Below, piece by piece: positions 6,615-61,791 of a DNA stretch of 64,000 nt. Origin of the DNA: Hyphomicrobiaceae bacterium (GTDB lineage: Bacteria; Pseudomonadota; Alphaproteobacteria; Rhizobiales; Hyphomicrobiaceae); assembly GCA_022844275.1 (NCBI GenBank), contig JALHMB010000001.1, positions 310,001-374,000 of the forward strand, given 5' to 3'. A program made the translations under genes and the position numbers. Positions within the stretch are counted from its first letter, which is position 1, and the number at the start of each line of letters is the position of its first letter. The notes beneath the pieces were generated by a model. It saw only the letters and a list, made by a program, of their open reading frames with translations, made no database searches and had not been told where the DNA came from.

Positions 6615-6639
6615 TCCGCAGCACCACTCTCGGAAATGA

Positions 6640-6676
6640 CAAGAGCCCCGCGCAGGTCCTGCGCGGGGCTCTTGTG
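6640..6676 (+). terminator. Terminator after trxA (convergent, possibly bidirectional)
   Basis: Near-perfect long hairpin caagagccccgcgcagg/tcctgcgcggggctcttg between convergent genes. Confidence 0.8.
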
Positions 6677-37646: not shown

Positions 37647-37937
37647 TCCAAATGCCCGATCTCGTAGCGTCGCTGTGCAGCATGAGCTGGGAGACCGGCA
37701 GGCCAATACCCAGGCCGAGGAATCAGGGCTCACAATATGTCAGGCTATCAGCGGCGGGAGGCCATCAAAACCCGGTCGTCGTGCAGTGCGGGATGGTCCG
37801 CGCCGCGCTCCCTGCTGCCGAGTTGACAATGACGGGCCAATATCCGAAAAAACCAAACATGGGGTTCTCCGCGACGACCTCGTGAGGCGCAAGCCCAATG
37901 TTCGCGTCCCAACGCCTCATTCGAGGAAGGACGCGCC

Positions 37938-38756
37938 ATGCCATCTCCAACCGAAATTTCTGCTGCCCAACTCGCTCGCCTCGTCGGCCTGCCGACCGCG
38001 CCTGCGATCATCGACGTCCGCACCGACGAGGACTTCGCGGCGGCGCCGCGGCTGATCCCCGGCTCCGTGCGCCGAGACCCGTTCCATGCGGCCGCGTGGT
38101 CTAAAAGCCTCGCCGACCGAAATGCCGTCGTCGTATGCCAGAAGGGCCTGAAGCTCAGTCAGGGTGCTGCGGCCTTGCTGCGCCACGAAGGTGTGCAGGC
38201 GGAGACGCTCGAGGGCGGGTTCGTCGGCTGGCACGAGGCGGGGCTGCCTACGGTCAATGCTGCCAAGCTGCCGCCACGCGATGCCCAGGGACGGACGGTG
38301 TGGGTCACGCGCGGACGGCCGAAGATCGATCGCATTGCCTGTCCCTGGCTGGTCCGCCGCTTTGTCGACCCGGATGCGGTCTTCCTCTTCGTGTCGCCAT
38401 CGGAAGTGAACGCCGTGGCCGAGCGCTTTGCCGCTACGCCCTTCGATATCGAGGGCGTCTTCTGGAGCCATCGCGGCGATCGCTGTACGTTCGACACCAT
38501 GCTCAGCGAACTCGGCCTCGCCGACACGGCCCTCAAACAACTGGCGACGATCGTGCGTGGCGCGGACACGGCGCGCATGGACCTCGCGCCGGAAGCCGCC
38601 GGACTGCTGGCCGTATCGCTCGGCTTCTCGCGCATGTACCGTGATGATCTCGCTCAGCTCGAGGCTGCGATGGTGATATACGACGGCTTCTATCGCTGGT
38701 GCCGTGACGCCAGCGATGAGACGCACAACTGGCCCTCTCCAAAGGTCAAGGCATAG
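37938..38756 (+). CDS. Rhodanese domain fused to ChrB-type chromate resistance C-terminal domain
   Basis: Rhodanese AIIDVRTDEDFAAAPRLIPGS with CQKGLKLS loop, then VWVTRGRPKIDRIACPWLVRRFVDPDAVFLFV. Confidence 0.88.
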   Translation: MPSPTEISAAQLARLVGLPTAPAIIDVRTDEDFAAAPRLIPGSVRRDPFHAAAWSKSLADRNAVVVCQKGLKLSQGAAALLRHEGVQAETLEGGFVGWHEAGLPTVNAAKLPPRDAQGRTVWVTRGRPKIDRIACPWLVRRFVDPDAVFLFVSPSEVNAVAERFAATPFDIEGVFWSHRGDRCTFDTMLSELGLADTALKQLATIVRGADTARMDLAPEAAGLLAVSLGFSRMYRDDLAQLEAAMVIYDGFYRWCRDASDETHNWPSPKVKA

Positions 38757-57556: not shown

Positions 57557-58249
57557 ATGAACGTGTTTCGATCGAGCTTCGGGGCGAAGCTCGCCCTGGT
57601 GCTCGCATTTCCATTGGGCGGCATTTCTCCCGCTGCCGCCGTGCCGCTCGACGCGCCGGCCTGCGAGCAGCTTCAGACACATCTCGACACGCTGCGCAAT
57701 GAAGGCGCCGCCGCCGACATGGCGCGCGGTCCGGAGTGGGCGCGCGCCAATCTGCCACTCGCACGTCTCCAGCGCATTGAAACACTGCTCGAGGTCGAGG
57801 AGCAGCTCAATTTCCGCTGCGGCCTCGCCAAGTCGCGGATAACGCTGCCGACAACGATCGAGGGCGGCGAGGAGGAAATTCCCGCCCCCGGAGAGGCGAC
57901 TGTCGAGGGGAATGCAGGCGGCGTGGCCCTACCCCAGCGGGCGCCGGCTGCCCAAAAGCGCCCAGCGGCGGCAGCAACCATAACGGTGCCGAAGACTCCG
58001 GCGCAGAACGCCCCTGCCGCAAAGGCTCCGGCCACAAGGCCCACGGCCCCAAAGGAGGCCGGGAAGAAGGCGGCCCCACCCCAGAAGGCGAGCGTGAAGG
58101 CCACAAAGCCGCCGGCGGAGGCGACCGAACCCAAGAAGGCACCGGCAAAGAAAAAGCAGTCACCAAAGACCGATGACGCCTATCGCCCGGCGCCGCGGCC
58201 GCCTCAGGCAACCGATAGCGGCGGGGCAGCCCTTGCTCCCCGGCAATAA
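57557..58249 (+). CDS. Exported hypothetical protein with Lys/Ala/Pro-rich C-terminal tail
   Basis: Signal-like MNVFRSSFGAKLALVLAFPLGGISPAAA; tail KAPATRPTAPKEAGKKAAPPQKASVKATKPPAEATEPKKAPAKKKQSPK. Confidence 0.65.
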   Translation: MNVFRSSFGAKLALVLAFPLGGISPAAAVPLDAPACEQLQTHLDTLRNEGAAADMARGPEWARANLPLARLQRIETLLEVEEQLNFRCGLAKSRITLPTTIEGGEEEIPAPGEATVEGNAGGVALPQRAPAAQKRPAAAATITVPKTPAQNAPAAKAPATRPTAPKEAGKKAAPPQKASVKATKPPAEATEPKKAPAKKKQSPKTDDAYRPAPRPPQATDSGGAALAPRQ

Positions 58250-58403
58250 GCCCCAATCGGCCGCAGCAGAGGTGGTGGCAGTTCTCGTCGACATGGTGTA
58301 GACCACCCCCCGGAATTCGTCCCGGGGATTTGGCCCCCGACCCAACGACACCTATATCGGGCTTTGAGGCGGCCGGCGGCGCGGGCGCACGACAACGAGG
58401 CAT

Positions 58404-58479
58404 TTAGTGTGATGATCGAGAAATTCGCCACATCTCGCGGCGCGGCGCCGAGCGAATTTCTCGATCTGAACCACACTAA
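58404..58479. repeat. Hairpin element IR1 (tandem pair upstream of secG)
   Basis: TTAGTGTG-at-GATCGAGAAATTCGC-(23 nt)-GCGAATTTCTCGATC-tgaac-CACACTAA. Confidence 0.9.
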
Positions 58480-58492
58480 GAGATTTGAGATC

Positions 58493-58570
58493 CTAGTGTC
58501 CCTATTGATTCCGAAGTTCGCTCGGGACACCAGCATCGATGTTAGGCGAACTTCGGAATCGGGACACTAG
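58493..58570. repeat. Hairpin element IR2 ending at the secG start codon
   Basis: CTAGTGTCCC-tatt-GATTCCGAAGTTCGC-(24 nt)-GCGAACTTCGGAATCGGGACACTAG directly followed by ATG. Confidence 0.9.
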
Positions 58571-58975
58571 ATGGCAACGGTACTGCTGGTCATACACCTG
58601 ATGATCGCCGCGGCGCTCTGCGCGGTCGTCCTGCTGCAGCGCTCGGAAGGCGGCGCGCTCGGGATCGGCAGTAGCGGAGGCGCCGGCGGCTTCATGACCG
58701 GTCGTGGGACCGCCAACATGCTGACGCGGGTGACGGCGGGCCTCGCCGCAGCATTCTTCGTCACCTCGATCAGCCTTACGCTGATCGCCCAGCACAACCG
58801 GCGTGGCGCTTCGCCGCTCGACCGGCCGGCGGCAACGGCGCCCGCGGTTCCTGGCACGGGCGCTCCTGCAGCACCGGCAACGGGCGGATCGGCGCCGGCA
58901 ACGGGTGGCGGCGGACTGCTCGACAGCCTTCAGCAGGGACGCCAGCAGCTCCCGTCTGTGCCGTCGAACCGCTAG
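58571..58975 (+). CDS. secG: Preprotein translocase subunit SecG
   Basis: MATVLLVIHLMIAAALCAVVLLQRSEGGALGIG; second TM helix; A/G/P-rich tail. Confidence 0.95.
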   Translation: MATVLLVIHLMIAAALCAVVLLQRSEGGALGIGSSGGAGGFMTGRGTANMLTRVTAGLAAAFFVTSISLTLIAQHNRRGASPLDRPAATAPAVPGTGAPAAPATGGSAPATGGGGLLDSLQQGRQQLPSVPSNR

Positions 58976-61669: not shown

Positions 61670-61791
61670 CCTTCTCCCCGTTCTTACGGGGAGAAGGTTA
61701 GGATGAGGGGCGGGAACTTGCGCTGACGTTTGCGTATGCCGCCGCCCCTCACCCTCGCCCTCTCCCCGCACGCAGGGAGAGGGGATTCTGG
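61670..61791. repeat. gggagaagg/ggatgaggg-type inverted repeat block
   Basis: CCTTCTCCCCGT-tctt-ACGGGGAGAAGG (61670-61697), ggatgaggggcgg / ccgcccctcaccct, ccctctcccc...gggagagggg. Confidence 0.75.

Follow-up and report, generated by a model that had tools for sequence, protein, structure and literature searches.

A double-hairpin element upstream of secG as a probable copy of an IS630-type MITE family in Hyphomicrobiaceae

The pair of hairpins lying between an uncharacterised gene and secG is very probably a single MITE copy, a non-autonomous element of the IS630 (Tc1/mariner) type: short (165 bp), without coding capacity and repeated in at least 49 copies in its own genome. A sequence-only reading of this DNA had described the two hairpins, IR1 and IR2, as a tandem pair of diverged elements with perfect 15-bp inner stems, loops of 23–24 nt, an 11/15 match between the inner left arms and four compensated differences, and this description of the geometry is confirmed throughout. 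The inner arms of IR1 (58414–58428/58452–58466) and IR2 (58507–58521/58546–58560) are each 15 bp long and 100% complementary, enclosing loops of 23 and 24 nt, respectively. The inner left arms, GATCGAGAAATTCGC in IR1 and GATTCCGAAGTTCGC in IR2, are identical at 11 of 15 positions, and direct reading of the sequence shows a complementary counterpart in the right arm for each of the four differences. The outer stem of IR1 is formed by TTAGTGTG and CACACTAA, that of IR2 by CTAGTGTCCC and GGGACACTAG with a 4-nt bulge on the left. The folding energy of the 169-nt stretch corresponds to z-scores of −8.9 (RNA) and −9.4 (DNA), and none of 200 shuffles was equally stable. The features of the locus are listed below, with positions referring to the window, i.e., the whole stretch of 64,000 nucleotides that was analysed.

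58405..58569, + strand: complete double-hairpin element, very probably a MITE, 165 bp from TA to TA; 47 aligned own copies and filled/empty comparison at the site
58405..58406, no strand: left TA, target duplication, reading TAG together with 58407; empty site GAGGCAT-TA-GATGG in relative G027
58404..58479, + strand: hairpin 1 (IR1), inner arms 58414-58428/58452-58466, outer stem TTAGTGTG/CACACTAA; inverted-repeat and folding analysis, family-consensus outer sequence matching end 2 of the G005 IS630 element at 20/25
58480..58492, + strand: inter-hairpin spacer; varies among own copies, 26% differences between orthologous sites
58493..58570, + strand: hairpin 2 (IR2), inner arms 58507-58521/58546-58560, outer stem CTAGTGTCCC/GGGACACTAG; inverted-repeat and folding analysis, family-consensus outer sequence matching end 1 of the G005 IS630 element at 22/25
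58561..58570, + strand: right terminus GGGACACTAG, with GGGA 6 nt 5' of the secG ATG; sequence, G027 leader GAGG-CATTAG-ATG; putative Shine-Dalgarno role
58568..58569, no strand: right TA, target duplication, immediately 5' of the G-ATG of secG; filled/empty comparison
58571..58975, + strand: secG, neighbour outside the element; TIGR00810 E 1.8e-18, PF03840 E 2.9e-18
57557..58249, + strand: uncharacterised gene upstream, neighbour outside the element; no NCBIfam or Pfam match

One unit and its copies

Recurrence of the whole 165-bp unit within its own genome (6.08 Mb in 24 contigs, from which copies were collected stretch by stretch) is more decisive for the reality of the element than chance statistics. 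With positions 58400–58575 as the query, the full-length unit was scored at 40 places including the one at secG; the 39 others are 80–89% identical to the secG copy, and many partial matches exist besides. The 23-mer of the left arm, with up to three mismatches, occurs at 49 places in the same genome and its reversed control at none. The proposal of a structured, homologous and propagated palindromic repeat with compensated stems is borne out, and the observation lies far above chance. In 47 full-length own copies, 162–166 bp in length, hairpins 1 and 2 occur together in fixed order with a spacer of about 14 nt, and the aligned copies share sharp ends, C-TAGTGTGATGATC... on the left and ...GGGACACTA-G on the right. 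This fixed order and the short spacer identify IR1 and IR2 as the halves of one 165-bp element (58405–58569) rather than as a tandem pair of diverged elements. The left-arm pattern is present in 25 of 104 genomes of the same family, with up to 100 copies in one of them, and holders include Hyphomicrobium sp. CS1BSMeth3, Filomicrobium insigne and metagenome-assembled genomes (MAGs) of Hyphomicrobiaceae. Outside the family, two of the 398 genomes of the order match, with three places and one place, respectively; the element is practically restricted to Hyphomicrobiaceae.

Insertion at TA and the ends of IS630 elements

In the closest relative, G027, the secG leader reads GAGGCATTAGATGG, whereas that of the genome under study reads GAGGCATT[TA...TA]GATGG; in a longer view, ...CGACAACGAGGCATTAGATGGCAACC in G027 is set against ...CGACAACGAGGCATT[TAGTGT...ACACTA]GATGGCAACG. 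Removal of the element together with one TA from the filled leader yields the empty site of G027 except for one T beside the TA. Filled and empty sites were also compared at four further loci, and the orthologous empty sites show that the element inserts at TA. Within a 400-kb stretch of G027, synteny was found for two own sites only; at secG the site is cleanly empty, and the second likewise lacks the element. In the leaders of G025, G026 and every other relative in which the SecG start could be located, the element is absent from secG. The element thus has no special association with secG and reached it by chance. The sequence-only reading had named as evidence against itself a genome with only these two copies and no conservation in secG leaders: copies are in fact numerous, and the leaders of relatives indeed show no conservation. 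The motif C|TA...TA|G surrounds 41 of the 47 own copies, pointing to a CTAG-like target, and a G follows the right TA in all 47. Duplication of TA upon insertion is a property of IS630-type elements (PMC2170065).

Two further loci bear on sites and gaps of this kind. At a gene junction common to three genomes (L002, L061, L073), two species are filled about 5 nt apart and the third is empty, which suggests independent insertions into one gap. In Hyphomicrobium sp. CS1BSMeth3 (L135, orthologous to L104:4207-4366), a second double-hairpin element, TAAAGCG...GCTTTA, is nested at C-TA-G in the spacer of a copy and apparently represents a further MITE family built in the same way.

IS630-type DDE_3 proteins were found in several relatives. 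Their transposases match NF033545 (E 3e-81 to 8e-86) as well as PF13358 and are encoded on elements of 1.17 kb. The genome G005 harbors two identical copies of a 1174-bp IS630 element with the ends TAGTGTCCTGATTCCGAAGTTTTCC and TAGTGTCCTGATCGATAAATTTCCC; the two copies lie directly head to tail on contig C84 (loci L221 and L224) and share one TA. The consensus ends of the MITE family, TAGTGTCCCGATTCCGAAGTTCGCC (right) and TAGTGTGATGATCGAGAAATTCGCC (left), agree with the G005 ends at 22/25 and 20/25 positions, respectively, as compared with 17 for either end if the two are exchanged. The same asymmetry is seen with the IS630 element of G003 (20/25 and 17/25). The element of G028 yields 19 and 15 without asymmetry, and among more distant IS630 elements a paired end match was not seen. 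Matches extending past TAGTGT were reached by a fraction of 0 to 0.0009 of shuffles. As the two IS630 ends are unlike in the same way as the MITE ends, the difference between IR1 and IR2 was most likely inherited from the two unlike ends of a parent transposon and did not arise, as had been assumed, from two copies of one hairpin diverging under compensation. The internal MITE sequence has no visible derivation from the IS630 element.

No recognisable IS630 transposase of the G005 type (DDE_3 or homologous) was detected in the own genome, G026 or G027. Movement in the own genome must therefore be past, in trans or due to a transposase missed in the 98.9% complete assembly, and its copies are probably relics or moved in trans. 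A partner transposase missing from the same genome is no bar to MITE status, as a relic MITE does not require one. In the proposed mechanism, an IS630 transposase would bind the two MITE ends, excise the element and insert it at TA. IS630 reportedly inserts preferentially at the TA in 5'-CTAG-3' (Tenzen and Ohtsubo 1991, cited in PMC2170065). Such TAs would, in a GC-rich genome, occur mainly in stop codons and intergenic regions.

Hairpin pairs in intergenic DNA are also reminiscent of REP sequences, which form pairs, and would fit a repeat of the REP/BIME type mobilised by a RAYT (Y1 transposase). The chance of this origin is next to nil: the genome lacks Y1_Tnp (PF01797), the unit measures 165 bp and duplicates TA, and its ends match IS630. 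No RAYT/IS200 mobiliser was found.

Compensated changes and constraint on the arms

Compensated stem changes are usually taken as proof of a functional RNA, and the sequence-only reading had considered selection for pairing. In the 47 own copies, standard pairs make up 97.5% of pair cells, double changes are found in 22 of 48 pairs, and 44 cells are doubly changed as compared with 4.3 in shuffles; sliding of the pairing partners abolishes the signal. Diversity among own copies amounts to 0.073 in the stems and 0.328 elsewhere. A conserved RNA structure of secG or of many genes—a riboregulator, mRNA stabiliser or attenuator with stems under RNA-pairing selection—would account for the very stable fold, the excess of doubly compensated changes, the conservation of the arms in place and the more frequent sense orientation of the element relative to both co-directional flanking genes (101 sense, 53 antisense). 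However, RNA tolerates G-U and not A-C, and the two are equally frequent on the mRNA strand: 89:90 for copies flanked by co-directional genes in a set of 222 from all genomes, and 21:19 for one-sided changes in own copies (26:21 on the element strand). This equality shows no sign of selection for pairing as RNA and implies that pairing is either kept up at the DNA level or was already established when the element inserted. The element is, moreover, present in all gene orientations, is not conserved upstream of secG among relatives and has no Rfam family; no Rfam match was obtained at the element. An RNA structure of this kind is thus very unlikely, and RNA pairing as the general reason for the stems is largely refuted. 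The element shows how compensated changes can come about in transposon DNA, and comparing G-U with A-C mismatches by strand is a simple way to tell RNA selection from such compensation. The only Rfam match in the window lies elsewhere, a chrB-a RNA (RF03078) at 37856–37940 with 60.5 bits versus a gathering score of 43.9.

The fate of the arms after insertion was followed at 11 sites filled in two species, ten of them in G033 versus G034 and one in L077 versus L090. Divergence amounts to 3.9% in the arms (41 of 1049 positions), 17.1% at unpaired positions (131 of 765), 15.6% in the flanks (513 of 3285) and 32.5% at fourfold sites of the flanking genes. The outcome is unchanged when the arm used as search pattern and the right terminus are left out (arms 4.5% versus unpaired 17.6%, P 7e-16). 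The low divergence of the arms (3.9%) relative to loops and spacer (17.1%) and to fourfold sites (32.5%) indicates that they were constrained in place long after insertion, a puzzling property for a parasite-like element: the rate of change in its arms is about one quarter of that in its loops and between one seventh and one eighth of that at fourfold sites. Changes in the arms of orthologous sites comprise 4 double ones, as compared with 0.8 expected, and 31 one-sided ones; all four double changes lead from pair to pair. With stems defined by the family structure, the G-U:A-C ratio at shared sites is 5:9. Single-sequence RNA folds gave a spurious 24:9 instead, because such folds favour G-U pairs by construction.

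Arms could also stay matched if the cell corrected one arm from the other by template switching in the hairpin, without any selection. Compensated changes private to single copies, the four pair-to-pair double changes in excess of the 0.8 expected and the lack of a G-U preference are all consistent with such correction, which may explain part of the compensation. As the sole cause it is unlikely: if unbiased correction were strong enough to make the arms diverge four times less, compensated pairs should be numerous, whereas one-sided changes outnumber double ones by 31 to 4 between orthologous sites. This imbalance favours selection at the DNA level, and the arms are probably selected as DNA via some DNA-level property. 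A wider reading is that the family was co-opted by its hosts, with arms kept by selection as DNA after insertion, e.g., because they are bound by a nucleoid protein, an enzyme of the gyrase type or a transposase-derived protein that is still present, and with the copies serving as dispersed standard intergenic modules whose ends also give stop codons and ribosome-binding sites; this we put forward only tentatively, as rather less probable than its opposite.

Position relative to genes and comparison with known repeats

All own copies are intergenic according to the gene calls, and over all genomes one of 220 lies inside a called ORF. Each element end carries TAG, and a neighbouring gene takes its stop codon from one of the ends in 13 of 47 own and 68 of 173 other copies. 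A start codon lies within 16 bp of the right end in 63 of 153 cases, as compared with 9 of 95 for the left end (P 3e-8); the counting of starts was repeated with genes called without any bonus for ribosome sites. The element makes up the whole gap between the stop it supplies and a start at most 16 bp away in 26 of 220 copies. Copies parallel to both co-directional neighbours number 101, opposed ones 53. These positions would be most simply explained if the right end GGGACACTAG can take the place of a ribosome-binding site. An insertion between co-directional genes could terminate the upstream reading frame at a TAG of the element, with GGGACACTAG offering a weak ribosome-binding site at least 6 nt before the downstream start. 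At secG, the element places GGGA six bases before the ATG, and G027 has GAGG six bases before it. The native GAGG would be displaced by 165 bp and replaced by GGGA at equal spacing, which most likely made the insertion tolerable.

Among repeats described previously, CIR (CcrM-associated intergenic repeat) shares two hairpin arms with a linker, TA ends, strictly intergenic location and occurrence in alpha-proteobacteria (PMC2229807), and GANTC, the methylation site for which members would be kept, is found in the arms of hairpin 2. Yet GANTC is intact in either arm in just 25 of 47 copies and resides at the arm base, not in the terminal loop, and by the published description CIR is shorter (about 110 bp versus 162–166 bp, 165 bp at secG); with GANTC neither conserved nor at the loop, membership in CIR is improbable, at most an outside chance. 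The mechanism of CIR mobility is left open in that description, whereas a matching IS630 element has been identified for the MITE; a double-hairpin intergenic repeat of alpha-proteobacteria is thereby linked to a specific transposon family. RUP of Streptococcus pneumoniae (PMC2229807) resembles the MITE in being short and non-coding, in TA duplication, in IS630-matching ends and in its many intergenic copies. It differs in size (107 bp) and host group; each end of the 165-bp MITE forms its own hairpin and, unlike in RUP, the arms are conserved after insertion and the right end preferentially lies a short distance before a start codon. IS630 of Shigella sonnei and ISY100 (PMC2170065) duplicate TA as the MITE does, a CTAG preference being reported for IS630, but they carry a transposase gene that the MITE lacks. 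ERIC and Correia/NEMIS are likewise small mobile palindromic intergenic repeats with TA ends that are stable when transcribed; they are set apart by the description of their fold, as their two ends pair in one stem. Searches of the literature for a double-hairpin repeat or for Hyphomicrobium MITEs retrieved nothing specific. Within the libraries and papers searched, the double-hairpin IS630 MITE family of Hyphomicrobiaceae is new, although its general kind is already known; its unusual features are the constraint on the arms after insertion and the operon-compatible ends.

Two other palindromic sequences were noticed in the window. An imperfect inverted repeat at 61674–61781, CTCCCCG...CGGGGAGAAGGTTAGGATGAGGGG..., has a core pattern occurring at 75 places in the genome with up to two mismatches and at none with the reversed control, and it therefore represents a separate, abundant palindromic family. 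At 6639–6675, the perfectly matched 18-bp arms of an inverted repeat, ACAAGAGCCCCGCGCAGG/CCTGCGCGGGGCTCTTGT, enclose a loop of 1 nt; this repeat is possibly a terminator.
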